The translations under genes and the position numbers were made by a program. From the NCBI GenBank assembly GCA_000965745.1, contig CP009479.1:2118457-2182456 (forward strand): a stretch of 64,000 nt of DNA, in the 5' to 3' direction. Of the stretch, positions 108-47,937 are shown in pieces. How positions within the stretch are numbered: position 1 is the first letter of the stretch; every line of letters starts with the position of its first letter. Below the pieces are notes generated by a model. The model was not told the origin of the DNA and did not search any database. It saw nothing but the letters and a program-made list of their open reading frames with translations. This DNA comes from an uncultured archaeon (GTDB taxonomy: Archaea > Thermoplasmatota > Thermoplasmata > Thermoplasmatales > Thermoplasmataceae).

Positions 108-111
108 TAAT

Positions 112-30600: not shown

Positions 30601-30673
30601 GGGCTCGTAGTCTAGTGGTTATGATACCGCCCTTACAAGGCGGTGGTCACCGGTTCAAATCCGGTCGGGCCCA
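30601..30673 (+). tRNA. tRNA-Val (anticodon UAC)
   Basis: A full cloverleaf can be drawn. The acceptor stem is gggctcg with cgggccc, the anticodon stem is ccgcc/ggcgg around the loop cttacaa (anticodon TAC, reading GUA), and the T arm is accgg-ttcaaat-ccggt. The discriminator base is A at 30673 and CCA is not encoded. The 3' end is duplicated at 37061-37076, marking an integration site. Confidence 0.95.
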
Positions 30674-31321
30674 TTCACAATTACGTTTAGTTTTTTCTGA
30701 AATGCCCAGCTTATGCTTCCTACAGTATTTCTGCACCCATTCTCTTTCATCTTCATGTGATGGTGTATCCCCTTCCAGATATGAGATATTGATGTTCCAA
30801 TCCACGCATGTAACTTCTTCGCCATGTCGCATTGTTGTGGGGAACTTTGAATAATCAGGACCGTAAGGATCAGGCCTGAACGGTGCAATGCGATACCAGT
30901 CCAGTTTGCTATCCTTCTCATACATCTCTGGATTATGCTCTTTATAATATTTTTCCCTGAGACTGCCAAGATACCATTTCAATGTTGAAGCAGATACACC
31001 CTTTTCACAGTTGAAATCATAATCACCTCTCAATTCATGGAAATAATCCATAAGATTAGTCTTCCAATCATTATCCAATGGCTCTAAAGTGAATTCCTTT
31101 AGATCTTTGAAGTATTTGCCCATGAATTCCATTTCTACCAATCTATCAGTTAGAACATCAAAGCCAGCGTAATCGATATCAGTAGGCCAATCATTCTTCT
31201 CGAATGGACCCTTGCGCAGTCTAACCTTATAGCCCAGTGGCCGAATGATCCACTTTGCATCGCCGAAGGATTTCATGAATGAATAACCTGAAGAAGTAAA
31301 TAAGGTTCCAGTGAGAATCAT
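30647..31321 (-). CDS. Unknown element protein whose last codons lie in the tRNA gene
   Basis: A 224-residue soluble protein rich in aromatic and charged residues (for example EKNDWPTDIDYAGFD, then KWYLGSLREKYYKEHNPEMY). The final residues, WARPDLNR, are read from the complement of the tRNA-Val T arm and acceptor stem, so the gene crosses the attL boundary. I see no tyrosine-recombinase R...HxxR...Y pattern, so it is not obviously the integrase, though its place is where one is often found. In the excised circle its C-terminus would change. A later start at 31276 (MKSFGDAKW) is possible. Confidence 0.5.
   Translation of the reverse strand: MILTGTLFTSSGYSFMKSFGDAKWIIRPLGYKVRLRKGPFEKNDWPTDIDYAGFDVLTDRLVEMEFMGKYFKDLKEFTLEPLDNDWKTNLMDYFHELRGDYDFNCEKGVSASTLKWYLGSLREKYYKEHNPEMYEKDSKLDWYRIAPFRPDPYGPDYSKFPTTMRHGEEVTCVDWNINISYLEGDTPSHEDEREWVQKYCRKHKLGISEKTKRNCEWARPDLNR
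30660..30675 (+). repeat. attL-like direct repeat inside the tRNA-Val gene
   Basis: tccggtcgggcccatt, identical to 37061-37076. It covers the end of the T arm, the 3' acceptor strand and the discriminator base, so insertion kept the tRNA intact. Confidence 0.85.
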
Positions 31322-31877
31322 CGATTCATCATTGAAAGGCTGATCGAAAAAGTTCAGTGTTATGAGAGATTTTATAGATTTGTTGAATAATCAGCATTAT
31401 TAGAAAAGAGAATGTATGAAGGTTTTGCCCTTCATGTATATAGTCTCCTGATACCTTCATGCATGGAAGTGTCAAGAAATTTTTATCCAGAATCCTTTCA
31501 GCCTGCGATACCTGCACCTTTTCGTTGGAATAGCACTGAGATCGCATTAGTTTTGAAATTTTGAGATTGGTAATATGCACATGTAATATGGCAACTTGGT
31601 TTTGGAAGTAGTAAAAACAACAGAAACCGTTGGAAACCATTATTCGAACACTTTTGAAAACGCCTGGGTACGTTTCAATCGACTATAAGTCAAATGTGCG
31701 TTAGGACATTGAAATATAGCCCGTTAAAAGCCATTTGGCTCAATGCTTTCAGATTGAATCGTTCTTTCAGAAAATGTGAATCTCCTAATTCCCATATGTG
31801 GAATCACCCGCATTTGACTTGATCCGTACGGTGCACACAAAACCCACCAACCAATCTTAATAAAAACTGGGCATATC
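31322..31877 (-). other. 556-bp AT-rich stretch without a confident gene
   Basis: A minus-strand frame of about 103 codons (31329-31640) is present, but its sequence has weak coding character and no motif. A TATA-like ctataaaat (31370-31378 in minus sense) may serve the 224-residue gene. Nothing else is recognised. Confidence 0.3.
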
Positions 31878-32402
31878 TCAAGTTAGATCAATATGCTGTT
31901 TTAGGAACTCTTCAAATTCTCTAGTTCTGTTTTTCTTTCCCAGCCTGAATTTATAGCTTCTACCGAGTTCAAAACAAATCCAGTTCTTTTTTTTCGAAGA
32001 CAGGACTTGCCAGCCAAACGAATAAGTGTTTGTGCTCAGCTCCACATTTCTTATCATTTCGTAATTTCCCCTGAGTCTGATGCCACCAATACACTGGATA
32101 AAGTGGTCGTCGTAGAAATAGAAAGTTCCCTTGCGATGCCAGTCCAAGTAAAGACCGATACCTATGAAGATAAAAAGAACGAACATGGCTGCAAGTGCAT
32201 CTTCAAAGTAAAACAGAATTGTTGAAGAAAAGCCTGCGTTTCCAAGAGGAATGTAAGCCTGCAGCATTATCCCTCCGGTTATGGATATGATTGAGATGAG
32301 GAAGAGGAATCCAACTGTCGAAAGTTTAATGCCGAGCATAAAGGCAGGCTTCTTTACACTGAACTCAGGCTTATACCTAATAAACGTCTTGGTAACAGGC
32401 AT
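31878..32402 (-). CDS. Two-helix membrane protein with a PH-like C-terminal region
   Basis: A 174-residue protein. Its polar N-terminus is followed by membrane helices at about 22-48 and 62-85, then a cytoplasmic beta-rich region starting TFYFYDDHFIQCIGGIRLRGNYEMIRNV. The order of two helices followed by a beta region with such a turn resembles bacterial-PH (bPH2) membrane proteins; the family call is by eye. The ATG at 32402 has a strong TATA box (agtatatata) 25 nt upstream, so the gene is probably expressed from its own leaderless transcript. Confidence 0.55.
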   Translation of the reverse strand: MPVTKTFIRYKPEFSVKKPAFMLGIKLSTVGFLFLISIISITGGIMLQAYIPLGNAGFSSTILFYFEDALAAMFVLFIFIGIGLYLDWHRKGTFYFYDDHFIQCIGGIRLRGNYEMIRNVELSTNTYSFGWQVLSSKKKNWICFELGRSYKFRLGKKNRTREFEEFLKQHIDLT

Positions 32403-32420
32403 AGATTAAATGAATTGCAT

Positions 32421-32430
32421 AGTATATATA
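32421..32430 (-). promoter_or_regulatory. TATA-like box for the PH-like membrane gene
   Basis: agtatatata on the plus strand, centred 25 nt before the ATG at 32402; the strongest promoter-like site inside the putative element. Confidence 0.6.
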
Positions 32431-32632
32431 AGAATTGTTGCGGAATTATTTTTGAGACATACACTTGCAAAAACCCAGATTAAAATAGCCTGAAGGATTG
32501 ATCACATGCTCACCTGGCACATACCCATGTCTGCCATGTGATCTGAAAGGATTGCAGGGCCACCTTTTCATCTATCTATTTCAAGTCTTGGAATATATTT
32601 TACTGCCCGACACTGAGAATTCTTTATTGCAT

Positions 32633-33277
32633 CTAAAATTTGGAACTAATTTTGAGAGCCAGCCTGAAAGACAGATACATAATAATTGGAAATGCAAAGT
32701 CCAAATCCAGTATACCAAAACCTCCAAAAACAGTAGGTTTTGTTAAGTAAGGTATACTTTCCACATCACTTACTACACCAACCAAGAATCCGAAGATATA
32801 TGAGATTAGAGGACCAATTTTTCTAATGTCCATGGCAACCCATAGCCCTGCGAATCCTGGGACAACGATTAAGGCGGGAATATTTGGGCCTCCCCCATTT
32901 TTGTATATTGGCTTTAGCTGATTCCCACTTAGCATGGTGTATAAGGTGTCCAAAATAAGAACAACAATCAAAATTATGATGCTATATCGAAAAAATCTGT
33001 TCCCATTTGAGGTGTGAGTTGCTATTGCCTTTAAAGCGAAAACTATGCTGATTGCCAAAGGAAAAAGGAATCCCAGAATATCTAAACTGACTTTAGAACC
33101 GAACAATAGAGGGGTGTTTAATTCAGACATTACACCCAAGAAAGAAGGGAAGAGTTCCTCAAACAACATTGTGACGAGCCCCAAAATTTTGTATGATAAT
33201 AGGGAAAACATTGCAAATAATGCGATTCTCAATATGGTTACAATGTTTTCATTCCAAACATTCTCGACTTTTCCCAT
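32633..33277 (-). CDS. Polytopic membrane protein of unknown function
   Basis: A 214-residue protein with about five to six membrane helices (about 12-45, 60-85, 96-115, 128-146, 150-170 and 190-208). A glycine-rich VFGGFGILDLDFAFPI motif near residues 183-198 and a conserved-looking GGGPNIPALIVVPG loop near 127-140 recall DUF1614-type archaeal membrane proteins, but I cannot confirm this. The ATG lies about 35 nt downstream of an AT-rich ctataagg box. It is part of the putative element. Confidence 0.5.
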   Translation of the reverse strand: MGKVENVWNENIVTILRIALFAMFSLLSYKILGLVTMLFEELFPSFLGVMSELNTPLLFGSKVSLDILGFLFPLAISIVFALKAIATHTSNGNRFFRYSIIILIVVLILDTLYTMLSGNQLKPIYKNGGGPNIPALIVVPGFAGLWVAMDIRKIGPLISYIFGFLVGVVSDVESIPYLTKPTVFGGFGILDLDFAFPIIMYLSFRLALKISSKF

Positions 33278-33443
33278 AAGAACTACATGAAGTTATGTTG
33301 CCCAATCCTTATAGTTGATACTTATACTCACCAAAATAGTCCACAATCGAAATGAAGTGTCTCAACTGGAATTTGGTCAAATCAGGATTTTTTCAATATT
33401 TGGAAGTTAATGGGCCCTGAGTTGTTACGTCATCGGATCCTCA

Positions 33444-33758
33444 TCAATCATCATATTCTCCGTCTTCAAGGATCCATTTGGCTCCTTTCGCTATATCTTT
33501 AAGCTTTCTCCAGGCAAGTTCTTCCTTCCTGATTGCAATCTTTTCTCGCTCGATATCCTCATTGGGCAGGTTACTTCTCTTTAAAGCCTTCTGTAAGAGA
33601 TTGTTTTGTTTCTTAACGACCTTAAGGTATTCCATTATTCCTTCTGCGACATCCTTTTCATGCTTAATTTTGAGTCTCAAATCGAAGTACGCGATGAGTA
33701 CCAATACAACTGAAACGGTTAAAGAAATAATTGAGAGTATAAGGCTAACTGAAGTCAT
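33444..33758 (-). CDS. Small membrane-anchored coiled-coil protein
   Basis: About 104 residues from the ATG at 33758 (MTSVSLILS). One membrane helix (about 3-28) is followed by a highly charged helix running to about residue 100 with a heptad-like pattern (EDIEREKIAIRKEELAWRKL). The frame extends upstream to 33875, but the added 39 residues lack a clear character. Such small anchored coiled-coil proteins are common in archaeal mobile elements; no function can be assigned. Confidence 0.45.
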   Translation of the reverse strand: MTSVSLILSIISLTVSVVLVLIAYFDLRLKIKHEKDVAEGIMEYLKVVKKQNNLLQKALKRSNLPNEDIEREKIAIRKEELAWRKLKDIAKGAKWILEDGEYDD

Positions 33759-34149
33759 ATAATTCTGTAACAAGCTGAGTGAAAATACTTTTGTTTGATT
33801 TGTTAAACCTCTGAGATCAACACAGACCCCAGAGAAAGCATTTTCAGGCATCATCCGTTCAAAAGGCATGGGCAACTATGCCCTGAACCTTGGAATGATG
33901 GGCTTAGACCAAATTATTGAAGTTGTGGATATTTATCAGAAGTGACTGGCTTATTAGGCAAGTGTACCTTTCGGAGCATGTATTCTGTTGGATTTGGCAA
34001 AATTTTGTCAAAACTTGATCTGGCAGAATGGCTATTTTACTGTGTTTCAAACTGTACTAACCATATATAATTTAATATGGTTAAGCCATCTCTGGAGTGC
34101 CTGTAATGGCTGATTTGCCATTTTGTGTTTTGCCAGATTGATTGCAGAA
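33759..34149. other. 391-bp AT-rich gap with an inverted repeat
   Basis: No convincing gene. It holds a perfect 9-bp inverted repeat (34058-34083) beside AT-rich, TATA-like sequence, and several near-repeats of tggca/tgcca motifs around 34020 and 34120. Confidence 0.35.
34058..34083. repeat. Perfect 9-bp inverted repeat with an 8-bp AT spacer
   Basis: taaccatat at 34058-34066 is matched by atatggtta at 34075-34083. It lies in a non-coding part of the putative element, 67 bp past the end of the 276-residue reading frame. An operator, a terminator-like hairpin or a replication-related site are all possible. Confidence 0.6.
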
Positions 34150-34980
34150 TCAGAGAAATACTACTTCCAAATTGTAGTCTTCTAAAATTTCAACATTGGT
34201 TTTTTTCGCTATTTCATCTTCTTCCCCGAAATAGTTGGTTATGCAGTATGTTGGAATCTTCCTTCTGCTTCTCAATGGATATTCAAAGTATTCACTCATC
34301 ATCAGGATCTGAAGTTCCTTCTTCACCCTTTTGCTGTGATTCTTTGCAACTTTCAGCCCATGTGCCTGCTTATCTGGGTAAAGGTATCCATTGAACTTGT
34401 TGTGTTCGCCTGAGATCCAGTTTCCATAGATGATAAGGAACTTCTCGTTTTCTGCCATGTCTGTGCCTGTCGAATTGTTGCCAAAATCAATCATCCTTAG
34501 ATAATCCCACTTTGTGCTGTGCAATGCCTTCTGGATTCTCTTCCTGGTTGGCTCATCAAATCTTATGAGTTCTTGCATCAGCTCTTCTGGCTTCATACCT
34601 CTTACTGTTTTTATCCATTCTTCCAATGATTTGAAAGTGATGAGAAGGCCATGCTGGCTGTTGTATTTTGAAGTGATTTCAGCGATCTGTCTGTCAATCC
34701 TCAGGAATTCTTCAAATGTGTTCAGGTCCATGCTGTCCTTCTTGAACACATCATTAATGCGTGTGATATTGACAGGGGTCCAAGGCTCCTTAACATAAAC
34801 TTTCCACTTGTCATCTGGATAATTGCAGTCTTCACTTTGGAATGTTGCATCTTGCCTTGTGCCATTTGTATGGTACTGTTTCAATTCCAGGTTCTGCCGT
34901 CCTGTTAAGAAGCATATAAAAGAGGACCTGAAGTTTACGCTGCAGAATGGGATTCTTTCGCATTCTGGCCATTGAAGCAA
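34150..34980 (-). CDS. Unknown element protein with a basic C-terminal region
   Basis: A frame of up to 276 codons from TTG 34980. The first 30 or so residues (MLQWPECERIPF) overlap the preceding gene and may not be translated; no ATG occurs before about residue 83. The core is hydrophilic, and residues 200-240 are rich in Lys and Arg (KVAKNHSKRVKKELQ, then YPLRSRRKIP). The end, IPTYCITNYFGEED, then EILEDYNLEVVFL, vaguely recalls restriction-endonuclease-like folds, but no PD-(D/E)XK core is evident. Either an internal non-ATG start or a frameshift from the upstream gene is likely. Confidence 0.45.
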   Translation of the reverse strand: MLQWPECERIPFCSVNFRSSFICFLTGRQNLELKQYHTNGTRQDATFQSEDCNYPDDKWKVYVKEPWTPVNITRINDVFKKDSMDLNTFEEFLRIDRQIAEITSKYNSQHGLLITFKSLEEWIKTVRGMKPEELMQELIRFDEPTRKRIQKALHSTKWDYLRMIDFGNNSTGTDMAENEKFLIIYGNWISGEHNKFNGYLYPDKQAHGLKVAKNHSKRVKKELQILMMSEYFEYPLRSRRKIPTYCITNYFGEEDEIAKKTNVEILEDYNLEVVFL

Positions 34981-35300
34981 TGATTTTCTTTGCCTATGTA
35001 TCTGATTCTGTTTGCAAATACACGTTTTCTTCGTGCTATGTTGTCAATGTAATCGAATTTGTTATCGTTATGCCTCACGTATGCTATTAACACTTCTTCA
35101 AGGGCTTTCCAGTATTCTTTAGAGGGCAAAGGCAATTCACTTGAGGATTTTCCAGAACGGTAATCAATGAATTCCTTGTACTGAATTCCGTTAATATCCC
35201 TTGAAAATGGTAATGATGGAATAGCATTATTTTTCTCAGACCCTACAAGAATGGAATTGAAGGGCTTTATCTGTTTATTCAGGGGCTTATCGTGATTCAT
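34935..35300 (-). CDS. Unknown element protein, possibly the N-terminal part of a frameshifted gene
   Basis: A 121-residue hydrophilic protein. Its middle (EYWKALEEVLIAYVRHNDNKFDYI) and its basic end (IARRKRVFANRIRYIGK) are helical. It overlaps the start of the next frame by 46 bp in another register. The missing good start of that next gene suggests that both were once one open reading frame of about 390 codons, or that they are translationally coupled. Two copies of a 10-bp direct repeat lie just upstream of its ATG. Confidence 0.45.
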   Translation of the reverse strand: MNHDKPLNKQIKPFNSILVGSEKNNAIPSLPFSRDINGIQYKEFIDYRSGKSSSELPLPSKEYWKALEEVLIAYVRHNDNKFDYIDNIARRKRVFANRIRYIGKENHCFNGQNAKESHSAA

Positions 35301-35728
35301 TTTCTTGAAGCGGTTTAGAATCGACGGTTTAGAACGGTGATTTGCGATACAGCTATTTTATCAGAATAATTTACAAATTTCTTGTTCAGGATGTCTTTTC
35401 AAATCTCCTTTCCTTCTGTCTCTTTGAGGTGGCCCAAGGGGGCTTTGTTATATCTCGGTTCTCGACCTGTTCTTCCTCTTTGCTTTGCTCACGTCAGGGC
35501 TGGCTGTGTATCTTACAGTGCTCTAACGTGCTCTTCCTTTGATTTTTTTCTCACTAAATTTATTCCGATAACCATGGGAATAAGACTTAAAAGTATGTAT
35601 CTGATAAAGCGAATTTCCCATCTAAAGCTCCCTATCTGGTTCATCTGCTCGAATATCCTCATCTGCTCTCCAACGATATTTCCCTGCATTTACAACTTAT
35701 TAGCATAATAAAAGGATGGTCTCCACCA
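35301..35728. other. 428-bp gap holding direct repeats and no clear gene
   Basis: Apart from the repeats at 35311-35334, frames of about 60-110 codons on the plus strand show low-complexity Ser/Cys/Leu-rich translations typical of non-coding DNA. No motif was recognised. Confidence 0.35.
35311..35334. repeat. Two direct 10-bp repeats upstream of an element gene
   Basis: cggtttagaa at 35311-35320 and again at 35325-35334, a 14-bp period, followed by a partial third cggtga. They sit between an AT-rich promoter-like region and the ATG at 35300, where a regulator or an iteron-binding protein could act. Confidence 0.6.
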
Positions 35729-36544
35729 TCAAATCAGTAATTTCAATATGTGGGAAAGTAATATTGTGGGCTGGTCCTCCATTACAAGGTGACCCGATTC
35801 AGCAATTTGGACAAATTCTGAGTCCTTTATTGCATTATTCAATTTATGTCCCTTCTCTATGGGAATCCAGCTATCCTCCTCTCCCCATACAATCAATACA
35901 GTGGTCCGGATGGTAGTATATTCGTTCTCTATCTCATCTGTGTATTTCTGACTGGACTGAGCAATTTGACGATAAAATGCAGGCTGACCTGTTGGACCAA
36001 GCCAAGGTTCTATAAGCCCGTTTAAGGTTTTCTCATCAACTGATTTGTATTTGGCACCTAGGACATAAGTTGATATTAGCGCTTTGTGAATGTAGGGCGG
36101 GATATTTTTAAAGGCATTTTCGTAACTTTTCACATGTGTGAAAAAATCCGACCCCCATGGAGCAATTGCTACAGGGTCGATTAGAATGATCTTATCAAAA
36201 GACCTTCCGTCTAACAAGTGTGCCCGTAGAATAGTGGTTCCACCAAAGTCATGGCCTATGGCCACTGGGGCCTCCAGGCCCCAGTAGTCCAGGAGTTCGC
36301 AGAAAACCTTGTTCTGAACTCCGAGGGATACGTCACCAATCCTTTTTTCAGATGCTCCATATCCTAACAAATCATAATAATAAACCTTAAACCACTGGCT
36401 CAATGGAGGGATTAAGTGCCTCCAACTGAAAGAAGACCAGGGCGTACCATGAACAAGAACAATCGGAGAGCCGCCGCCCTTAATGTCGTAAGCTATTTCT
36501 CCAAATGATGATTGGAATCGCCTTTCAGGCCCTAATTGTTGCAT
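35729..36544 (-). CDS. Alpha/beta hydrolase with an aspartate nucleophile elbow
   Basis: A 271-residue protein. It has the oxyanion-hole motif VLVHGTPWSSF (about 29-39), the nucleophile elbow GHDFGG (about 98-103, Asp nucleophile), an acid-bearing VWGEEDSWIP segment (about 222-231) and the catalytic His in ESGHLVMED (about 250-258). An Asp nucleophile points to epoxide hydrolase or dehalogenase relatives rather than esterases; the tryptophan that normally follows the Asp in haloalkane dehalogenases is Phe here. A gggtga ribosome site precedes the ATG. It is the only familiar enzyme in the putative element, likely cargo. Confidence 0.85.
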   Translation of the reverse strand: MQQLGPERRFQSSFGEIAYDIKGGGSPIVLVHGTPWSSFSWRHLIPPLSQWFKVYYYDLLGYGASEKRIGDVSLGVQNKVFCELLDYWGLEAPVAIGHDFGGTTILRAHLLDGRSFDKIILIDPVAIAPWGSDFFTHVKSYENAFKNIPPYIHKALISTYVLGAKYKSVDEKTLNGLIEPWLGPTGQPAFYRQIAQSSQKYTDEIENEYTTIRTTVLIVWGEEDSWIPIEKGHKLNNAIKDSEFVQIAESGHLVMEDQPTILLSHILKLLI

Positions 36545-37130
36545 TCAGTAGTTCACCCTTCTTTTCCGTTACCTTTCAACTTCTATTTACATATAACAAT
36601 TGTGCCCGCATATGACGGCTATACGTTATCATTCATAGCCTTTGGAATTCCTTCCCTGACCCTTATCTATCGCACTCTGTTATCTACTGCCTTGATAACT
36701 ATATTATCATGAATATAGTGAGTGGAGATATGCAAATGTGCTAAGGACACCATTGGAAATACATTTGACCTCTGTCATGCGGTCCATGAGGGAAATCTCC
36801 TTGGGAGTCCTTCCAGCTACGAATATCTGGTAGAAATTTGAGACTAAATGTGATGTTCGACTCAGTGCTTTAATAGAGGCTTCTGTCCACGCGAGATTCT
36901 GAATTGCTGTAATGAACAAGTATAGAAAGATAGATTACAGGGTCAGGATAGCCTACGTACCTTCCGACAGTAGAAATGGAATAGCACGATGTCTTCAACT
37001 ATGGAATAAGGTATTTTCTGAAAGAACCCTGAGAAAGACTTGCTTACAAGGTTCATTAAGTCCGGTCGGGCCCATTTTTGCATGGCGCTTGTTTAGCAGT
37101 GCTGGTCGCACGTGCATAGAAACTGCTTTC
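36545..37130. other. 586-bp end of the element with short relic frames and the attR site
   Basis: It contains an 8-bp inverted repeat (actatatt at 36698-36705, aatatagt at 36712-36719), a minus-strand frame of 70 codons (36707-36919) of unknown nature, and the attR-like tRNA fragment at 37043-37076. No full gene can be supported; it looks like decayed DNA at the element's edge. Confidence 0.4.
37043..37076 (+). repeat. attR-like distal tRNA fragment
   Basis: The last 16 bases (37061-37076) match the tRNA-Val end exactly. Just before them, cttacaagg and ttca match the anticodon loop and the T arm, but about 13 bases of the variable region are missing and a few bases differ. It looks like the remains of a longer repeat that once began at the anticodon loop. 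Confidence 0.75.
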
Positions 37131-37886
37131 TCATACCATTTGGCCTGCAAACACCTTGGTTTCATGTTCCATTCTGACCCATTTCCCTTTCTTGTTCTCC
37201 TTGAAAGCCTTATCGAATGCTTTTAGCAATTTCCCATACTTTGGATTGCTGCTCGCCATAGCATAAGGCGCTGAGAAATACCTTCCCTTCAATGCTTCAA
37301 GATTCATTTCCTGCGGATTCGGTAGTGAGAATTTTCTTACTTCATGGCCAAAGAAACCCACTATATCATCGTTTGACAGTCCAGTACTTCCGGAGGAATG
37401 GTATCCCTCGCTATATTTACGGCATATCTCCTCATAAGCTGCGTTAATTCCAGTGCTTTTGGCAACACGGTCGTTCCATACGAGAATCAAAACACCATTT
37501 TCAGTGAGTATCCGCTTAAATTCCTCCCTGGCAGCCTCTAGATCGAACCAGTGGAACGCCTGGCCAACAACTATGAATTCCACTGAGCTGTCAGGGAGCC
37601 CTGTATGTTCAGCACTTCCATCCATTAAGACAGCTTCCGGATAGCCAGACAGGTCCTTTTTTGCCGCCTCCCGCATCTCCCGGTTCGGCTCTATGCAGAA
37701 TACTTTATTGCCATTTTCCAGAAACAGTCTTGCCAGCTTTCCCGTGCCGGATCCTATGTCGGCGATTGCTGATTCGTCACCCATATTGAACTCCAGCTTT
37801 ATGACTGAGAGCAGATCTGCTGGGTAATCCGGTCTGTAAAGTGAGTAATTCGAGGATCGCCCGTCAAAACGGTTCTCATCTTTCAT
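37131..37886 (-). CDS. Class I SAM-dependent methyltransferase
   Basis: A 251-residue protein from the ATG at 37886 (MKDENRFDG). It has the SAM-binding motif I IADIGSGTGKLARLF (about 40-54), an acidic residue in VFCIEPN (about 61-67), and SVEFIVVGQAFHWFD (about 103-117), the form seen in the UbiE/COQ5-like type 11 group. The start is set by a ctatatta TATA-like box 28 nt upstream; the frame runs nearly 100 codons further but without methyltransferase character. The substrate is unknown. It lies just outside the tRNA-bounded element. Confidence 0.85.
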   Translation of the reverse strand: MKDENRFDGRSSNYSLYRPDYPADLLSVIKLEFNMGDESAIADIGSGTGKLARLFLENGNKVFCIEPNREMREAAKKDLSGYPEAVLMDGSAEHTGLPDSSVEFIVVGQAFHWFDLEAAREEFKRILTENGVLILVWNDRVAKSTGINAAYEEICRKYSEGYHSSGSTGLSNDDIVGFFGHEVRKFSLPNPQEMNLEALKGRYFSAPYAMASSNPKYGKLLKAFDKAFKENKKGKWVRMEHETKVFAGQMV

Positions 37887-38468
37887 TGGCAGAAACATTC
37901 TGCACGCAGTAATATAGTTGTGGTTCAACCAGCATAACATGAGCTTACCGCAAGGAAACATTAGACGTTCAGTACCCCCACAAAACGATGCTTCACCACC
38001 TGATTCCTTATTTCTCCTGTCATGGAACACTGTGCCCGGTTCCCATGAAGGTCGGGAATGCCAGAATACCCGAAGGAAAGCAGAGGTACATTCAATGATT
38101 TCAAACAAGCAATACAAAACAAACAGGATGGTGTGATAAGATGCCACGGTAAGATGCGTTTGCTGATGGCAAGGTTCCATACAAAATGAAGAGAAAAGTA
38201 TTCACGAGAGCTTTCCGGACAGGATACAAAGTGCAGGCCTGCACTGGGGGGATTAAGCATACCAGTGATGACGGGCCATGGAATTCTCGAGTAGTGCCGC
38301 AGTTGTTCTTGTACAGATATCGTATATCGGGTGTGAATACCCACCAGCTCCACTGTGACTTAATACGATGATTGCAGGCAACTCCCTCCTTTTTGCCTAA
38401 CATGAAACCGTGGCTGTGCTCTGACAGCTAAGATTAATATTGCATTACCCATAGCCTTCCATCATATC
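37887..38468. other. 582-bp intergenic stretch, possible relic DNA
   Basis: No motif-bearing gene. A short plus-strand frame at 38186-38371 begins MKRKVFTRAF, faintly like the N-terminus of IS3-type transposase OrfA, but it then loses all similarity. The region includes the promoters of the divergent methyltransferase and reductase genes. Confidence 0.35.
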
Positions 38469-39548: not shown

Positions 39549-41066
39549 TTATCCACCGGTATACTGCTCCACAACGTAGTATTTGTCACTGAACACTTCC
39601 TTGTACATGCCAGAGGGGAAATACCCTGATGAAGCTTGTGAAGCAAGAAATTCCTGCGTCACAACGATGTATTTTATGCCGTATTCATGGATGTAATTTG
39701 CTGAAGTTTGATTTGCAGGGTTCATCACGATATATGTCGCTGCGTTCCTGAGGTCTATCTGGCTGCCCCCTACCAGAAAATTACCATATACGATCACGGG
39801 AACGCCATCCACGGATGATATGTAGTTCCCTATGTTTGGAGCTATCACGATCCCATTGCTGAGGTTCTTTTCACCCCATGCAAGCAGTTGGGCATCATAC
39901 TGGTAATACCCGGACTTGTAGTGTGAAACGCTTCCTGCTGCAATTCCTGCCTGGAATGGAACTGCGACGAGAACCACGCCCAGAAGAATGGCGATTGCCA
40001 ATCGCGAAGCGGAATTCCTTCCCTTCCCGGTTGCTGCACGTTTCAAAACCGGCCCTGAAGTTGCACTGAAAAGCCTGAGGACGACAATAGTTCCCAGTAT
40101 TATCGTATAATACATTATCCTGCCCCCAAGCGTTGTGGATTTGAATATGAAAGGTATGAAGATGAGTGAGGCCACGAGAGCAATTATGAATGGGTCCCAT
40201 TTCACCTTTGACAGCCTGATGTCGCTCTTGTAGAGTGTGTAAAATGCAATCGCGATGACTGACAATGCGAAAGGGATGAACACCATGAGATACGACCCGG
40301 CTGTACTGAGCGGTATGTACGAGCCGTAGCCGCTAGATTCGGTAACGAAAAATGCATCGTAAACAAACCTGATTCTTGGCAACCACCAGATCAGGCCAAC
40401 AACCAGGGCCGAAAAGAATGGCATCAGTTCACGGAGTATCAGGTTGAGGTCCTTCCTGGTTGCGTCATAGATCAGGAGCACAAGGAACGCAAGCATGGAG
40501 AAGAACCAGGTAAGATCGTGGCTCAAGGCAAGCAGGACAGCAGCTATAGATGACCAAAGGATCCAGGTCCAGCCTGAAATGCTTCTCTTTGAGAGTGTGT
40601 AAAGAAGGGCTATGAAGAGAAATTCACCGAAGATGAACGGGTCCCCGCCCCAAGACAGACCATAGAGATCCGGCATGAAGAATACCGCAACTGCGCCGAT
40701 AATCAAGTTCTTCAAGGCGCTTTTGTTGTTTCTAGCTGCATAATATATTATTGAAGCGGTCAGGGAACTTGCGGTTGCCGCCACTGCCAGAAGTTCAGCC
40801 ATTACAAGGTGCGGGGCGAATGCCGGATGAAACAGGGCGTTGAGTGAGTTTACTATCAGAAACAAGAGAGGGGGGTATATGTAGGCAGTTCCAGGAAAGT
40901 AGAGCACATTTGCTGCAGGTATCCACCCTGCGATGTGTATCTCCCTCACAAATGTGGCAAACTGCCCAAGGTCTCCGCCCTGTATGAACGTAGGATAAAA
41001 AATGAGCAATCTTACTGACAGTGATGTTACGAATATTGCAAGAGTCTCAATTAGGGCCCTTCTCAT
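39549..41066 (-). CDS. Polytopic GT-C-like glycosyltransferase or related membrane protein
   Basis: A 505-residue protein with about ten to eleven membrane helices. In the first outer loop an acidic GGDLGQFATFVREI motif (about 30-43) recalls the catalytic Asp of GT-C enzymes such as protein mannosyltransferases and ArnT, which use lipid-linked sugars. A C-terminal outer domain follows from about residue 390. The start overlaps the end of a GT4 gene by 20 bp, so the two are likely translated together and may build the same glycan. The exact family is not settled. Confidence 0.65.
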   Translation of the reverse strand: MRRALIETLAIFVTSLSVRLLIFYPTFIQGGDLGQFATFVREIHIAGWIPAANVLYFPGTAYIYPPLLFLIVNSLNALFHPAFAPHLVMAELLAVAATASSLTASIIYYAARNNKSALKNLIIGAVAVFFMPDLYGLSWGGDPFIFGEFLFIALLYTLSKRSISGWTWILWSSIAAVLLALSHDLTWFFSMLAFLVLLIYDATRKDLNLILRELMPFFSALVVGLIWWLPRIRFVYDAFFVTESSGYGSYIPLSTAGSYLMVFIPFALSVIAIAFYTLYKSDIRLSKVKWDPFIIALVASLIFIPFIFKSTTLGGRIMYYTIILGTIVVLRLFSATSGPVLKRAATGKGRNSASRLAIAILLGVVLVAVPFQAGIAAGSVSHYKSGYYQYDAQLLAWGEKNLSNGIVIAPNIGNYISSVDGVPVIVYGNFLVGGSQIDLRNAATYIVMNPANQTSANYIHEYGIKYIVVTQEFLASQASSGYFPSGMYKEVFSDKYYVVEQYTGG

Positions 41067-42177
41067 TATTTACCACACTGAGATAAAGATCGGAAAGTTT
41101 ATCGGATATAGTATCCCAGTCATACTGCACAGAGAAGTCCCTTGCATTCCGGCTAAGAGTCTTCCATCTGTCTTCATCCTTGTACAGCTGCTTGATCTTG
41201 GAAATCATATCTTCAAAGTCCTGGGATACAATCCCGTTATAGCCGTCCCTGATAACTTCATTGATAGCAAGATTATAAGGACCGCTCAGGGCCATCACTG
41301 GAACTGATGCAGCCATTGCCTCCAGAGATGCTATAGAGAATCCTTCACGGTAGCTAGGCATTACAAAGAGCCATGAGTTTTTAATTTCCCTTACGAGTTC
41401 TTCGTGCCCAATGTGGCCGGTGATGCTTATGTTACCGTTGCCGTTTACCAGATTCCTCAGGTTTCTGATCTGGCTCCCGTCGCCTACAATTTTGAGATTG
41501 AGGTCCTTGTGCTTGTTTACATGCTTGATCAGGAGATCCAGCCTCTTGTGGGATTCAATCCTCCCGACATAAATGATCTGGCCCCATTCCTTGTTATTGT
41601 TGCAGAGGAATTCAGAAGTATTCACGCCGTTGTTGATTATTGAGACGTTCTTTGAAGGCCCGTAGGTGTTTTTCAACAGGTTGGAAACAGTATCTGAAAC
41701 AGCTATGTGGTTATGGATGAACCTGTACACAAGGCCCTCCCAGCTTGCCACTTTTCTCCAGAAGACGTTTCTTGAATAATAGTAATCCCTGAGTACCTCG
41801 TGCCATGTGAAAAATGTGTTCTTTTTCTTTTCTATGGCTTGAATCCCGCTGAGAGCATGTACCAGGGGAAATTCGTCGAAATTATAAATGTCGTAATCAC
41901 GGTATTCTTTCAGCCTTTTCCTGACTCCTGATGAGTATTTCAGTGCTCCCATGAGCCTCCTTGAGTCCACTTTGAAATACTGAGAAGGGTCGAGATTTGT
42001 AACAAACTCGACGTCCAGGCCTTTAATTTCCGGAGGGTCTGTGAAACCGTTTGTGAGGATCTTGATCTCGAAACCCTTGTTTGCAAGACGCCGGAAGGTT
42101 TCAAAAGACCTTGTCTCTGCACCTCCCTCATGCGGATGAAAGGACTCGTTGGCCGAGATAATCCTTGGAAGGTCCAT
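41047..42177 (-). CDS. Family 4 glycosyltransferase (GT-B fold)
   Basis: A 376-residue protein. It starts with an HPHEGGAETRSFETFRRLA loop (about 15-33) and has IIYVGRIESHKRLDLLI (about 203-219), followed by the EX7E nucleotide-sugar motif in YREGFSIASLEAMA (about 284-297). It transfers a sugar from a nucleotide donor at the cytoplasmic face, probably to a lipid carrier. A ggagg ribosome site lies about 10 nt before the ATG. It is coupled to the downstream GT-C-like gene. Confidence 0.9.
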   Translation of the reverse strand: MDLPRIISANESFHPHEGGAETRSFETFRRLANKGFEIKILTNGFTDPPEIKGLDVEFVTNLDPSQYFKVDSRRLMGALKYSSGVRKRLKEYRDYDIYNFDEFPLVHALSGIQAIEKKKNTFFTWHEVLRDYYYSRNVFWRKVASWEGLVYRFIHNHIAVSDTVSNLLKNTYGPSKNVSIINNGVNTSEFLCNNNKEWGQIIYVGRIESHKRLDLLIKHVNKHKDLNLKIVGDGSQIRNLRNLVNGNGNISITGHIGHEELVREIKNSWLFVMPSYREGFSIASLEAMAASVPVMALSGPYNLAINEVIRDGYNGIVSQDFEDMISKIKQLYKDEDRWKTLSRNARDFSVQYDWDTISDKLSDLYLSVVNNEKGPN

Positions 42178-42533
42178 CTATATATGTCCTCCGATGTTCA
42201 TCGTGATGACAAGTGATGCACCGTTTTGATTATAATTTTTGCCCGCGATCTGATAATCTGACATGTATTTCCATGGTGTGATACGTTCAGTCAATTCGTT
42301 TTCCTGTCTTGCGATGTCAGACATGCATGCTTCAGCGTTAATACCAATCTCATATGAATAACTTTGTAGTACAGCCGACGCGATCACTTTAAGATTGCAT
42401 CTTCGCTGACGCGGTTTGGACAAACGTTTGAGGGCTGAAAGCCATGTCTGATCAACCCTTGTTGATATCCTGTGAGATCATGCCTGTTCAGCGCTTGCCA
42501 AAGATTATATAACTATTTTACACTGTCTTGCCG
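42178..42533. other. 356-bp intergenic region between divergent genes
   Basis: It holds the ribosome site of the GT4 gene and the TATA-like attatataa (42504-42512) of the deaminase gene. A gtgatga/ctga pair (42203-42253) resembles C and D boxes but without internal boxes, so no RNA is called. No protein gene is seen. Confidence 0.4.
42504..42512 (+). promoter_or_regulatory. TATA-like box for the dCMP deaminase gene
   Basis: attatataa centred 26 nt before the TTG codon at 42534, fixing it as the likely leaderless start. Confidence 0.55.
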
Positions 42534-43046
42534 TTGGAAATTAACAGGCCCAGTTGGGACCAGTACTTCATGAGGATGGCATTCCTGGCTGCATCGAGAA
42601 CTAACTGCACCAGAAGAAAAGTAGGGGCCGTCATAGTAAAGGACAAGAATGTGCTTGCAACTGGATACAACGGTCCACCGTCAAATTCCGCACATTGTGA
42701 TTCTGCCGGCTGCCTCAGGAACATCATGGATGTGCCATCGGGAGAAAGGCATGAGCTATGCAGGGGACTGCACGCCGAACAGAATGCCATAATCCAGGCA
42801 GCCGTGCATGGTGTAAGCATAAAAGACTCTGTTATATATGTGACAACACATCCATGCGTTGTTTGTGCCAAGATGCTTATTAATGCCCATATAAATGAAG
42901 TCATATATGCGGATGGCTACCCGGATGAGCTTTCCAAACTCATGCTTCTCGATAGCGATCTTAACTTGAGAAGATTTGAACTTCCTGAAGAGGAAGTGAG
43001 GATGATGATCGGTAACTTTTCCATGGCAGAGTCGGGTGAAGATTAA
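42534..43046 (+). CDS. Deoxycytidylate (dCMP) deaminase
   Basis: A 170-residue protein from TTG 42534 (or 172 from TTG 42528). It has the zinc and catalytic motif HAEQNAI (about 79-85) and PCVVC (about 106-110), preceded by the family's [21 protein letters not shown] segment. The enzyme deaminates dCMP to dUMP for thymidylate synthesis. A TATA-like box 26 nt before 42534 indicates a leaderless TTG start. The DedA gene follows 26 nt later on the same strand. Confidence 0.93.
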
Positions 43047-43072
43047 AATATATACAGGAATAAGGGTAAGAA

Positions 43073-43744
43073 ATGAACGTGCCTCTGGCTGAATACGTTG
43101 TAAATCTAGTGATACAGGTAATGCACATGGCAGGTTACCCCGGAATATTTTTCCTCATGCTGCTTGAGGGGATGCTCTTGCCAGTGCCGTCAGAGGTAGT
43201 CATGGCATTCGGCGGATTCCTTGCGTTTTCAGATGGCCTTCCACCGGTTCTGGGAATTCCAGCTTACATCATTGTGCTCATCGCAGGAAGCCTCGGCAAT
43301 CTCGTGGGAGCATACATCGCATACATGATTGGAGACTACGGCGGCATTCCGCTTATCAAGAAGTATGGAAAGTATGTTTTATTGAAGGAAGACACAGTAG
43401 ACACTGTCCAGAAATGGTTTGAAAAATATGGTCCCATGTCAGTGTTCCTCACAAGGCTTGTCCCGGTATTCAGGACCTTTATATCAATACCTGCAGGGAT
43501 AGCAAGAATGAACAGAAAGCTGTTTCTTGCATACACATTCATTGGTGCAGTCATCTGGGATTCATTCCTGGTTTATCTTGGGTGGAAGTTTGGTCAGAAT
43601 TGGCAGGTGATAGTGGCTTCGTTTACAAAGTATACTGACGTGGCTCTTGCAGCACTTGGTCTGCTCTTCATATACTGGATTTACAGGGCCCTTTCGAGAA
43701 GAAAGGCCATTAAAGAAAAAAAAAATAGTCAGGCTGAAAAATAA
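43073..43744 (+). CDS. DedA-family membrane protein
   Basis: A 223-residue protein with about five hydrophobic segments. It shows the DedA/VTT-domain motifs: MLLEGMLLPVPSEVVMAFGG (about 24-43), GSLGNLVGAYIAYMIGDYGG (about 66-85) and VFLTRLVPVFRTFISIPAG (about 124-142), the last with the essential Arg. DedA proteins are lipid-flipping or proton-dependent membrane proteins. A gggtaag ribosome site precedes the ATG, and it likely shares a transcript with the deaminase gene. Confidence 0.9.
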   Translation: MNVPLAEYVVNLVIQVMHMAGYPGIFFLMLLEGMLLPVPSEVVMAFGGFLAFSDGLPPVLGIPAYIIVLIAGSLGNLVGAYIAYMIGDYGGIPLIKKYGKYVLLKEDTVDTVQKWFEKYGPMSVFLTRLVPVFRTFISIPAGIARMNRKLFLAYTFIGAVIWDSFLVYLGWKFGQNWQVIVASFTKYTDVALAALGLLFIYWIYRALSRRKAIKEKKNSQAEK

Positions 43745-43854
43745 ACGATATTTCCATATTAATATATTACGAAGAGAAGATATAGTAACGATGTTTCAGC
43801 TTATTTGCGTTGGGAAAGTTATTAATCCATTCTTATAATTCCTTTTTTGAGATT

Positions 43855-45594
43855 ATGAGTGAGCAATCTATCAGTGATTTTACCAGGATAGAAACTGACG
43901 TACTTATTATTGGAGCTGGTGGAGCTGGCCTTAGGGCTGCGATAGAGGCTTCTGACAATGGTGCAAAGGTTGTTGTTCTTTCCAAATCACTACTTGGGAA
44001 AGCACATACTGTTATGGCAGAGGGCGGAGTGGCCGCATCTCTCGGAAACGTTGACTCAAAGGATAACTGGGGAATACATTTTGCAGATACCGTAGTTGAA
44101 GGTGTCCATCTTGGAGACTGGAGGCTTGCTGAAATCAATGCCAAGGAAGCTCCTGACCGTATCTACGAGCTTGAGAAGTACGGTGCAATGTTTGACCGGA
44201 CACCTGATGGCAGGATTCTCCAGAGGGCGTTTGGTGCGCATACATACAGAAGGCTGTGCCACGTGGGAGACAAGACCGGCCTGGAAATGATAAGAACACT
44301 TGAAGACCAGGTCCTGCACAGAGATATCAAGGTACACGACGAAACTGTTGTAACCAAGATTTTCAAGAAAGATGGCAGGGCGGTAGGTGCGCTGGCTTTC
44401 GAGATGAGAACTGGAAAATTCATGGCGATCAAGAGCAAGGCGGTTATTCTGGCCACTGGAGGAGGGGGCAGACTATTCAAGGTTACCTCGAACTCCTGGG
44501 AGTCTACAGGAGACGGTTTTGCCCTGGCTTTCGATGCTGGTGCAACACTAATGGACATGGAAATGGTCCAATTCCACCCGACCGGGATGGTCTACCCGCC
44601 AGGTGTGAGGGGCATGCTGGTAACAGAGGGAGTCAGGGGTGAGGGGGGAATTCTTCTAAACTCCAAGGGAGAAAGATTCATGAAAACCTACTCCCCCAAC
44701 AAGATGGAACTTGATGCCAGAGATGTTGTAGCAAGATCAATTTATAATGAGATACAGGAAGGAAGGGGGACTGAGCACGGCGGAGTGTACCTGCAGATTC
44801 ACCACAAAGGCGCCAAGTTCATTCTTGACAAGCTGCCCGGTATGCACTCGCAGTTCCTGGAATTCGCTGGTGTTGACATTACGAAGGAGAACATGGAGGT
44901 TGCTCCCACAACCCATTACTACATGGGTGGAATAAAGATAGATCCGGAAGACAACCAGACAACGCTTCCCGGGCTGTTTGCCTGTGGCGAGGCGGCAACT
45001 GGGCTTCACGGTGCAAACAGGCTTGGCGGGAACTCGCTTATCGACCTCCTCGTATTCGGAAGGAGGACGGGGCAGTCCGCGGCCAAATACACCAAAGATG
45101 CGCAACCGGCAGACGTGAGCGAGAATGACATAATTGAGGAAATATCCAGAGTGACGGGTTTCCTGAACAAGCCGAGTGCAGTAAATCCATATGAATTGAT
45201 CAATGAGCTGAGAGACACAATGTCCAAGTATGCAGGCATCAGGAGGACAGAAGAGAACCTGACGACTGCTCTTGACATACTGCTCAAGATAAAAGGGCGG
45301 TACAGTGAAATAGGTGTTGCCGGAAATGTCAGGTTCAATCCGGGGCTGATAGCCTGTTTTGAGCTTCACAGCCTTCTCACAACGGGTGAGCTCTTGCTGA
45401 GAGGTGCGATACAGAGGAAGGAAAGCAGGGGAGCCCATTTCAGAAGCGATTATCCAAAGATGAGTGAGGAGTTTAAGAGGAATATTACCTGGCACATGGA
45501 AGGCAATGAGGTCAAGAGCTCTTTCTCGACCATGCCTGAGCTTCCGCCTGAAATGGTGAAAATAGTTGGTCAAGTGGAGGGGCATACTCAATGA
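43855..45594 (+). CDS. sdhA: Succinate dehydrogenase/fumarate reductase flavoprotein subunit
   Basis: A 579-residue protein from the ATG at 43855. It has the FAD fold VLIIGAGGAGLRAAIEA, the HTVMAEGG motif holding the histidine that binds FAD covalently, ATGGGGRLF, FHPTGMVYPPGVRGMLVTEG and the late GLFACGEAATGLHGANRLGGNSL. It oxidises succinate to fumarate in the citric acid cycle. The frame runs 15 codons upstream but without family character. Its stop overlaps the sdhB start by 4 nt. Confidence 0.96.
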   Translation: MSEQSISDFTRIETDVLIIGAGGAGLRAAIEASDNGAKVVVLSKSLLGKAHTVMAEGGVAASLGNVDSKDNWGIHFADTVVEGVHLGDWRLAEINAKEAPDRIYELEKYGAMFDRTPDGRILQRAFGAHTYRRLCHVGDKTGLEMIRTLEDQVLHRDIKVHDETVVTKIFKKDGRAVGALAFEMRTGKFMAIKSKAVILATGGGGRLFKVTSNSWESTGDGFALAFDAGATLMDMEMVQFHPTGMVYPPGVRGMLVTEGVRGEGGILLNSKGERFMKTYSPNKMELDARDVVARSIYNEIQEGRGTEHGGVYLQIHHKGAKFILDKLPGMHSQFLEFAGVDITKENMEVAPTTHYYMGGIKIDPEDNQTTLPGLFACGEAATGLHGANRLGGNSLIDLLVFGRRTGQSAAKYTKDAQPADVSENDIIEEISRVTGFLNKPSAVNPYELINELRDTMSKYAGIRRTEENLTTALDILLKIKGRYSEIGVAGNVRFNPGLIACFELHSLLTTGELLLRGAIQRKESRGAHFRSDYPKMSEEFKRNITWHMEGNEVKSSFSTMPELPPEMVKIVGQVEGHTQ

Positions 45595-46331
45595 AAGAAG
45601 TGACGTTTATAGTCTATAGAAAAGACCCATCGGTCAGTGAAGAGGAGAAATTTGAAGAATACAAGGTTCCGGTGGAAGAAGGGATGGTCGTCCTCGATGG
45701 AATACATTACATTGAGAACAACATAGATCCAACTCTTGCGGTAAGGTGGAACTGCAAGGCTGCAAGATGCGGCTCCTGTTCTGCTGAGGTGAATGGTTTC
45801 CCAAGGCTGATGTGCAAGACAAGGGTTGAGGATATGGGAGACAGGATCAAGGTATCCCCCATGAAGGCTTACCCCGTTGTGAAAGACCTTGTCACCGACG
45901 TATCACAGAATTATGACATAGAGAGAAGGATTCCCGAGTTCAAGCCCAAGGAAGGGCTGCAGGAACCATGGAGAGTTGACGAGATGGATGTGAAGAGATC
46001 CATGGAGTTCAGGAGATGCATTGAGTGCTTCCTTTGCCAGAACATCTGCCATGTGATCAGGGAGCATGAATCGAATTATGTCGGTCCAAGGCACATGGTT
46101 AAGATAGCATCCCTCGATATGCATCCACTTGATGACGTCGACAGGTCTGAATTCCTCCATGATGAGGGGGGAGCTGGATACTGCAACATAACCAAATGCT
46201 GCCAGGAAGTCTGCCCGGAACACATTCACATCACCGACAACGCCATAATACCGATGAAGGAGAGAATAGTTGGCAGTTACTATGATCCGATAGAGAGGGC
46301 AATTAAGAAAATCAGGAGGAAAAAGAGGTAG
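45591..46331 (+). CDS. sdhB: Succinate dehydrogenase iron-sulfur subunit
   Basis: A 246-residue protein. An N-terminal [2Fe-2S] domain has CKAARCGSCSAEV (about 55-67) and a final Cys in LMCKTRV. A C-terminal domain carries CIECFLCQNICHV (about 143-155) and CNITKCCQEVCPEHIHIT (about 200-217) for the [4Fe-4S] and [3Fe-4S] clusters. It carries electrons from FAD to the membrane quinone. The ATG overlaps the sdhA stop as ATGA. Confidence 0.96.
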   Translation: MKEVTFIVYRKDPSVSEEEKFEEYKVPVEEGMVVLDGIHYIENNIDPTLAVRWNCKAARCGSCSAEVNGFPRLMCKTRVEDMGDRIKVSPMKAYPVVKDLVTDVSQNYDIERRIPEFKPKEGLQEPWRVDEMDVKRSMEFRRCIECFLCQNICHVIREHESNYVGPRHMVKIASLDMHPLDDVDRSEFLHDEGGAGYCNITKCCQEVCPEHIHITDNAIIPMKERIVGSYYDPIERAIKKIRRKKR

Positions 46332-46337
46332 GTAAAA

Positions 46338-47054
46338 ATGGTAGAGAAAACTAGCGGTTTTTTCAAGGTTATTCCAAGAGAGCTGTGGGAACCAAACTGG
46401 AGAGTGTGGTCATTCGTGCTTCTTCTTGTGGTTTCCGTGGGAACGTTCATAGAATTCCCAGTCGCACCATTCAATGGGTACGTTGATCCCTTCTATTCTC
46501 CAACAGTGCTCGTGCTTCCATTCGTAGGGCTCTTCAGGCTGACATGCTACGCTTACAGGAAAGACTATTACAGGCACGTGTTCAACCACCCGAGAAGTTG
46601 CATGACCCCTGCCAGAGCCGAGTCAAAGCACAAAGGATACAGCGGTGAGACCAACCTCTTTGGAATAAGCAACCTCCACAGATACTTCCTTTACATAGGA
46701 ATCGCAATCCTTCCATTCTTCTACTACGACTTTGTGACATCAATGTTCATAGGCGGGGCGTTCATGATCAGGCTTGGAAGCATTATCTTGCTTGTCAACG
46801 CAATACTTGTCTCACTCTGGACGTTCTCATGCCATGCATTCAGGCACCTGACCGGAGGAAACGTGGACTGCTACAGTTGCACTGCTGCCCCCAAGTTCAG
46901 GAAGGGATGGTTCAACAGGCAGTCACTCATGAATGAGCACCACGAGGCTTTTGCTTTCATCAGCCTTGCGTTTATTGTGGGAGTTGACCTTTACATGAGA
47001 GCACTGTCGGCAGGTTGGCCAATAGACTTCACATTCCTGAGCTTCCACCTCTAG
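46338..47054 (+). CDS. sdhC: Succinate dehydrogenase membrane anchor subunit
   Basis: A 238-residue protein with about five membrane helices (about 28-46, 56-72, 110-130, 140-165 and 200-220). Several His residues in or near the helices could bind haem. It follows sdhB by 6 nt with an aggta ribosome site, the place of the anchor gene. Between helices it has NHPRSCMTPARAESKHKG and a CYSCTAA segment with two close cysteines. It should anchor SdhAB and pass electrons to quinone. The assignment rests on order and hydrophobicity. Confidence 0.8.
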   Translation: MVEKTSGFFKVIPRELWEPNWRVWSFVLLLVVSVGTFIEFPVAPFNGYVDPFYSPTVLVLPFVGLFRLTCYAYRKDYYRHVFNHPRSCMTPARAESKHKGYSGETNLFGISNLHRYFLYIGIAILPFFYYDFVTSMFIGGAFMIRLGSIILLVNAILVSLWTFSCHAFRHLTGGNVDCYSCTAAPKFRKGWFNRQSLMNEHHEAFAFISLAFIVGVDLYMRALSAGWPIDFTFLSFHL

Positions 47055-47063
47055 GTGATCAAA

Positions 47064-47264
47064 ATGGAAGAAGAATATGAAAAGAAAAAATATCTCGGAA
47101 CGGGTATAAGATACCCCCTGTTCTTCATCGGTGTCATGTTAATGGCCATAGGAGGAAACGCGTACAAATTCACGTCCTTCTCCCTGACCGGAATAGAAGC
47201 AATAGTCGGCATCGGGTTCGCAATTTTTGTGGCATCGATGCTTCCCGGCATGAAGAAGAAATAA
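47064..47264 (+). CDS. Small two-helix membrane protein, probable SdhD-like subunit
   Basis: A 66-residue protein with two membrane helices (about 16-33 and 40-60) and a charged start (MEEEYEKKKY). The ATG at 47064 follows a full ggtgatc Shine-Dalgarno site (47057-47063 region) that overlaps the sdhC stop, so an earlier GTG at 47055 is part of that site and not the start. As the last gene of the sdh operon it is probably the second anchor subunit, though a family match cannot be shown by eye. Confidence 0.7.
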   Translation: MEEEYEKKKYLGTGIRYPLFFIGVMLMAIGGNAYKFTSFSLTGIEAIVGIGFAIFVASMLPGMKKK

Positions 47265-47321
47265 TAACACACTTTTTCCCTTAAACCCCCTTTTTGCTGC
47301 TTTTTGATTGACTGGCAAACC

Positions 47322-47368
47322 TTAAATATTATTTATTAATTATAGGTTGACAACTAATGGTTGTCAAC
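47322..47368 (+). promoter_or_regulatory. Promoter with a perfect 9-bp inverted-repeat operator for the hsp20 operon
   Basis: A TATA-like ttaaatatt (47322-47330) is followed by gttgacaac at 47346-47354, the 5-nt spacer taatg, and gttgtcaac at 47360-47368. Transcription should begin near 47351, inside the repeat, so a bound protein would block the polymerase. The operon's own HTH regulator is the obvious candidate. Confidence 0.75.
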
Positions 47369-47382
47369 AGAGGTGTAGATAT

Positions 47383-47922
47383 ATGGCAAGAAAAGACTTT
47401 GATGATTGGGATGAAGATTTCTTTGGAGACATGTTCAGTGAGTTCGGCTTTGACTTCAAAAAGATGAACGAGCGCATGAGGAAGATATGGGACAGGATGC
47501 TTCACGACCCTGATTTTGCCACACAGGAACCTTACGTTTACGGGTTCACATACAAGGTCGGGCCGGAAGGCAAGCCCTATTTCCAGGAGTTCGGGAACAT
47601 GCCGGGAATGAGGAGAGAAAGGGCAAACATCCAGCAGAAAGACGTTAGAGAGCCAATAACAGACATTACAGAAGACAAGGACAAGTCGTACTTCACGTTC
47701 GAGCTTCCAGGAATATCAAAAGAGAACATAGACCTGAAAGTATCTTCCAGAAACGTAACCATCAGTGTAAAAGAGGGCACAAGGAAATACTACAAGAGCA
47801 TCGATCTCGACTATGAGGTTAAGCCCGAATCTGCCAAGGCCAGGTTCGTGAACGGCATACTTGATGTTTCGCTGGAAAAAACAACGAAAGAAGGCTCCGG
47901 AAAAACCATAGACATCGAGTGA
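47383..47922 (+). CDS. Hsp20-family small heat shock protein
   Basis: A 179-residue protein. An acidic, aromatic N-terminal region (DDWDEDFFGDMFSEFGFDF) precedes an alpha-crystallin domain (about 90-175) with YFTFELPGISKENIDLKV and the family's closing ARFVNGILDVSLEK. It binds unfolding proteins and holds them for refolding. The ATG at 47383 follows an aggtg ribosome site; an ATG-less longer frame at 47347 lies in the operator. The gene is 15 nt upstream of an HTH regulator. Confidence 0.93.
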   Translation: MARKDFDDWDEDFFGDMFSEFGFDFKKMNERMRKIWDRMLHDPDFATQEPYVYGFTYKVGPEGKPYFQEFGNMPGMRRERANIQQKDVREPITDITEDKDKSYFTFELPGISKENIDLKVSSRNVTISVKEGTRKYYKSIDLDYEVKPESAKARFVNGILDVSLEKTTKEGSGKTIDIE

Positions 47923-47937
47923 CGTGAAGAGCGGAAA

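Follow-up and report, generated by a model that had tools for sequence, protein, structure and literature searches.

The 6.4-kb island behind the tRNA-Val gene of this window (the whole 64,000-nucleotide stretch of DNA that was analyzed) is best read as what remains of a plasmid- or virus-like integrative element that targeted a tRNA gene and has since lost its integrase. We put the probability of this reading at roughly 0.85. The first-pass annotation had proposed an element integrated in a Thermoplasmatales host. The insertion itself is supported by intact twins in other genomes and by island-free gene order in relatives, but what stands in the window is decayed, with neither integrase nor replication genes, rather than an intact element. 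The island is bounded by tRNA-Val(TAC) (30601-30673, forward strand; ARAGORN), the sole tRNA gene in the window, and by a copy of its 3' end. The exact 16-mer TCCGGTCGGGCCCATT, made up of the last 14 bases of the tRNA plus TT, occurs at 30660-30675 and again at 37061-37076. Repeat comparison extends these copies leftward to an attL core, AAATCCGGTCGGGCCCATT (30657-30675, forward strand), formed by the 3' end of the target tRNA, and an attR core, AAGTCCGGTCGGGCCCATT (37058-37076, forward strand), which match at 18 of 19 bases, with 16 exact from 37061. Across the complete, single-contig 2.23-Mb host chromosome there are only two exact copies of TCCGGTCGGGCCCATT, not many, and both are at the island ends; the copies with one mismatch lie at the ends of tRNA-Val(GAC) and tRNA-Ile.

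It is extremely unlikely that the right-hand copy arose by chance or remains from a duplication of tRNA-Val, with ordinary lineage-specific chromosome lying between the two copies. Fragments of tRNA genes are on record in prokaryote genomes (PMC9897764). However, when 10 kb of downstream sequence was shuffled 2000 times, the tRNA tail matched over at most 12 bases, versus the 16 observed, and the repeat has the same boundaries as in the twin elements, starting within the T-arm and ending 2 bases beyond the tRNA. Composition and orphan content are also sharply unlike both flanks: G+C is 39.4% within the island versus 47.2-47.4% outside it, and elsewhere in the window G+C over 6.4 kb falls no lower than 46.0%. 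The exact repeat and AT-richer interior described in the first-pass annotation therefore both stand, as does the leftward direction of its genes, which is shared by all island genes of note.

Intact elements with the same layout were found among 117 Thermoplasmatales genomes, a set that includes Thermogymnomonas acidicola (same family) and I-plasma (same order) and in which contigs of metagenome-assembled genomes (MAGs) may be misassembled. In G093 (locus L141), the orthologous tRNA-Val(TAC) is followed over 12.46 kb by an element ending in a tyrosine integrase and then the core AAATCCGGTCGGGCCCAT; G111 (L142) has the same layout at its orthologous tRNA-Val(TAC) in 5.6 kb. These two elements resemble the window island in tRNA, core, and the direction of most genes, which read toward the tRNA. 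Unlike the island, they keep an integrase beside attR (442 and 483 amino acids, respectively), and their other gene content is unrelated to it. In a third genome, G034, an integrase directly follows tRNA-Val, whose 3' end is repeated without mismatch 2.07 kb further on. At tRNA-Ala(GGC), the host itself has another such element, 8.8 kb long, that carries a PrimPol-like gene and keeps its integrase next to attR. This integrase family was found in at least 60 of the 117 genomes, and of the 30 integrase loci that we inspected, most have a tRNA, or the core from a tRNA 3' end, next to them. In a published survey, tRNA genes adjoin 40-50% of the clusters of atypical genes in Thermoplasmatales (PMC2718499). 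These results correct the earlier statement that few such elements have been described in these hosts. A point against the integrative-element reading is that the att core in the window is flanked by a 10-bp direct repeat and shows no inverted attP arms, which are 12 bp long in G093 and approximate in G111. Because arms like those of the twins are not visible here, the original integrase may belong to another branch of the family.

Comparison with relatives, which the first-pass annotation had suggested as a check, shows the site without the island at the level of gene order. In G001, the cytochrome b/Rieske genes are followed by tRNA-Val and then by homologues of window positions 39549-49296, with no island; methyltransferase and FAD reductase genes stand between the window's attR and the first gene that it has in common with G001. 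Island genes are likewise absent behind tRNA-Val in G010 and G033. For the window, support for an empty site is thus one of gene order within a compared set that holds no genome of the same genus, whereas a site resolved near base level is seen only for the G111 twin: in G010, a genus-mate of G111, the two flanks of that element almost meet, each of them 80-82% identical, and G010 is its empty site. The window's own empty site is predicted to read tRNA-Val and then directly TTTGCATGGCGCTTG..., and an excised island would give the circle junction ...TTCATTAAG-TCCGGTCGGGCCCATT-CACAATTACG....

The credible reading frames of the island (224, 174, 214, 143, and 276 amino acids, a polymerase relic, 58 and 271 amino acids) all run leftward. 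Coding is sparse near both ends, at 31330-31870 and 36545-37057. The only Pfam match above cut-off is the 271-amino acid alpha/beta hydrolase (35729-36544, reverse strand), whose best solved match is 5w15 (E 1.2e-74); six-frame read-through of the whole island against Pfam, and its leftward frames against PHROGs, gave nothing beyond it. Other related genomes yield only distant, mostly partial hydrolase matches of 43% or less, so this gene looks like imported cargo. The hydrolase had been called the only recognizable gene, which is correct as far as Pfam families go but overlooks the frameshifted casposon polymerase relic at 34986-35437. A further point against the integrative-element reading is that neither an integrase nor an integrase relic was found in the island by Pfam searches in six frames or by homology comparison. 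It has no replication gene, and its three leftward frames gave no PHROG match to capsid or packaging genes. An SSV-type (suicidal) split integrase was ruled out, as no integrase fragment lies at either end.

Also overlooked previously was the 224-amino acid frame (30647-31321, reverse strand), which runs leftward through attL into the tRNA. Among the matches listed, it has one distant homologue (about 31%), on contig C157 of G098 (13.8 kb), which starts with a Val-type core and an integrase of the same family and also encodes a D5-like primase/helicase; this makes it the sole island protein in common with an integrase-bearing element. The 224-amino acid protein has no Pfam, NCBIfam, or PADLOC match, and nothing like it was found in viral contigs or plasmid records. 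We rejected it as a candidate integrase, because it has no family match and its homologue's contig has a separate integrase. Its gene adjoins attL and reads toward it, while at the attR end about 500 bp (36545-37057) hold no convincing gene, at the position that the integrase takes in the intact relatives.

The remaining genes are largely orphans. The 174-amino acid protein (31878-32402, reverse strand), with a hydrophobic N-terminal half, has no homologue in the 117 Thermoplasmatales genomes. The hydrophobic 214-amino acid protein (32633-33277, reverse strand) has homologues, among the matches listed, only in G015 (contig C62) and G054 (contig C67), at 30-32%, and a scan of viral contigs found nothing. 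The 143-amino acid frame (33444-33875, reverse strand) shows by eye a hydrophobic segment and a charged, coiled-coil-like region, and Pfam and further searches returned no informative homologue. For the 276-amino acid frame (34150-34980, reverse strand), the matches listed include one broken relic, 45% identical over about 70 amino acids, near tRNA-Ser in G083; a scan of wider genome contigs found nothing. AlphaFold predictions run without an alignment had mean pLDDT values of 33 (224 amino acids) and 31 (276 amino acids), and the models are unusable. The 58-amino acid frame (35513-35689, reverse strand) is doubtful. Membrane and surface cargo, as earlier proposed, is not borne out: its basis was hydrophobic frames that have no family match, and the one clear mobile-element gene is the casposon polymerase fragment.

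This fragment (34986-35437, reverse strand) derives from the family-B DNA polymerase of a casposon. It is a relic of about 450 bp or 150 residues (about residues 641-791 of 883), with one frameshift, and it takes in most of a reading frame at 34935-35300. Its identity as a polymerase rests on motifs seen by eye in the G015 protein, both exonuclease (DTET, FNLPFD, YNINDV) and polymerase (DFTSMYP, NATSYG, YCDTDS), and on a weak match to a PHROG DNA polymerase; sequence searches of Pfam and the PDB returned no polymerase. The relic is 81% identical in nucleotides to the casposons of the host (G000) and of G015, whose polymerases are 84.5% identical to each other. It was thus not copied recently from the resident casposon. 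Where it differs from the two casposons, it does so mainly at third codon positions, which indicates that the relic diverged mostly while functional and broke late. Unrelated sequence abruptly adjoins it on both sides.

Casposons also insert behind tRNA genes (PMC4046053), and they are the source of this relic. One of them (L037), in the MAG LSA5.bin55 (G015), lies directly behind the orthologous tRNA-Val and has inverted terminal repeats GGGGATATAGATAAGGCCGAAAAACGTGCCGC, a 14-bp duplication CCCATTAATTATTT, and genes for Cas1 (Pfam E 2.5e-57), HNH, HTH, polymerase, and restriction proteins. The host's own casposon (L036/L061) lies behind tRNA-Pro(GGG) and spans the contig ends. The island could in principle be a decayed casposon, inserted behind tRNA-Val by Cas1 (casposase), whose genes were cargo between the left terminal repeat and the polymerase. 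With respect to the tRNA, the relic is indeed oriented like the polymerase of the G015 casposon, and both known casposons carry cargo genes between tRNA and polymerase. We nevertheless regard this origin as very unlikely. The decisive point is the register of the duplication: the window repeat overlaps 14 tRNA bases, whereas the 14-bp casposon duplication consists of CCCA of the tRNA plus the ten next bases, in G015 and at the host tRNA-Pro alike, so that it overlaps only the last 4 (4-7 in published cases; PMC4046053). At the right end, CCCATTCACAATTA would be expected again but does not recur. Allowing up to 3 mismatches, we found no terminal repeat at the island, and of the casposon genes only the polymerase stretch had a match there, with no homologue of Cas1, HNH, or HTH. 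Register, terminal repeats, and Cas1 together led us to reject a casposon as the inserting agent, and the register largely refutes it by itself.

A refinement of the integrative-element reading can be offered tentatively: an integrase-type element and a separate casposon may have used the same tRNA-Val and been fused by deletions, making the 6.4 kb a chimera. Consistent with this, tRNA-Val(TAC) is used by the G015 casposon, by a decayed casposon relic in G014, and by the integrase elements of G093, G111, and G034; casposon relics adjoin integrases in G085 and G084; and the polymerase relic is cut off abruptly on both sides. On the other hand, it lies 4.3 kb from tRNA-Val, with the 224-amino acid gene, of integrase-element type, between it and attL, where a later casposon should adjoin the tRNA. 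It is equally possible that the fragment was captured before the element integrated, or through recombination.

For the remnant of an integrative element, we infer the following chemistry and order of losses. Recombination between attP and the 3' end of tRNA-Val(TAC) would have been carried out by a tyrosine integrase from the family that is widespread in Thermoplasmatales. At the left junction, the core brought in by the element would have restored a complete tRNA, and the tRNA's own 3' end would have been shifted to the right junction. The integrase, expected beside attR, and any replication genes would have been lost later. A casposon polymerase fragment would have been acquired, by capture or fusion, and a few orphan genes and the hydrolase retained. 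Among the host integrases examined, none with tRNA-Val specificity was seen; the island is therefore probably immobile now, unless a helper integrase with that specificity enters the cell.

Elements bounded by tRNA genes and rich in orphans are established in archaea (PMC8371274), including Thermoplasmatales (PMC2718499; PMC12302457), and att cores of archaeal integrative elements down to 8-13 bp are on record (PMC8371274). Like type II (pNOB8-type) elements (PMC8371274), the island leaves its target tRNA intact, has the 3'-end repeat at the far end, and is AT-rich and orphan-rich. Unlike them, it has no integrase, replication module, or recognizable attP arms, and it contains a casposon polymerase fragment. 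None of the features that define casposons (Cas1, inverted terminal repeats, and the 14-bp duplication) is present. It also matches the atypical-gene clusters (PMC2718499) in being a block of orphans and atypical composition that adjoins a tRNA, and the casposon fragment is the sole departure from that pattern.

By itself, the island is one more decayed tRNA-gene element, and its presence accounts for a group of orphan genes. What merits further attention is that the same tRNA ends serve two unrelated classes of element. In the cited literature we found no description of tRNA-Val being common to casposons and integrase elements, or of casposon relics beside integrases. It is possible, although we hold this loosely, that Cas1-driven casposons and tyrosine-integrase plasmids and viruses, which differ in mechanism, commonly land at the same tRNA 3' ends in Thermoplasmatales, and that repeated co-landing yields chimeras. 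This island, with integrase-type ends and a casposon polymerase inside, may be one of them, and modules would then pass between the classes at shared sites. Shared tRNA sites offer a setting in which gene exchange between element classes can be tested by genome comparison.

Tyrosine integrases of one family, about 440 amino acids long, are present in 60 of 117 Thermoplasmatales genomes, and most of the integrase loci that we read (L111-L140) adjoin a tRNA for Val, Pro, Ala, Arg or Met, or else the 3'-end core of such a tRNA. The host genome itself carries such an integrative element at tRNA-Ala(GGC) (L101:8343-17237; G000:C1:1502342-1511236), with an integrase, a PrimPol-like primase and an insertion sequence; its attP is flanked by GGTTTAAACC palindromes. 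The attP reconstructed for the tRNA-Val element of a related genome, G093 (L141:12540-12600 with 110-150), has perfect 12-bp inverted arms, TAAACCGTATAT/ATATACGGTTTA, standing close around the core. These are nearly repeated in the corresponding element of G111 (L142) and are likely integrase binding sites.

Casposons also occur beside tRNA genes. At the orthologous tRNA-Val of another genome, G015, lies an intact 11.8-kb casposon (L037:3872-15684; G015:C41:140871-152683) with terminal repeats and a 14-bp duplication, encoding Cas1, a polymerase, an HNH protein and type IV (Mrr) and type IIG restriction enzymes. A second casposon site in the host, of about 13.2 kb, lies behind tRNA-Pro(GGG) (G000:C1:2216913-2226687 plus 1-3422; L036, L061). 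Its 14-bp duplication is CCCATCATATTCAT and its Cas1 is intact. Where an insertion sequence interrupts the polymerase, some 350 residues are missing from it. This casposon spans both contig ends, which argues that the host chromosome is circular.

Among the 117 genomes, a casposase search found broken remnants to be common (L076-L095), mostly retaining the C-terminal part (residues ~257-412) and often near a C-terminal polymerase piece. Almost full-length casposase relatives, with 49-73% identity, were also seen in MAGs labelled Micrarchaeota and Marsarchaeota (L154, L156), reflecting either cross-phylum transfer or misbinned contigs.

In the window, a methyltransferase gene (37131-38180) lies between attR and the FAD reductase; it is shared by none of the compared tRNA-Val loci and may represent another insertion, immediately beyond the island's edge.

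Two other Thermoplasmatales genomes are further cases in which the casposon and integrase classes are co-located: relics of casposon polymerase or Cas1 lie within a few hundred bases of tRNA-type integrases in G085 (L145:8946-10838) and G084 (L146:9917-11727).
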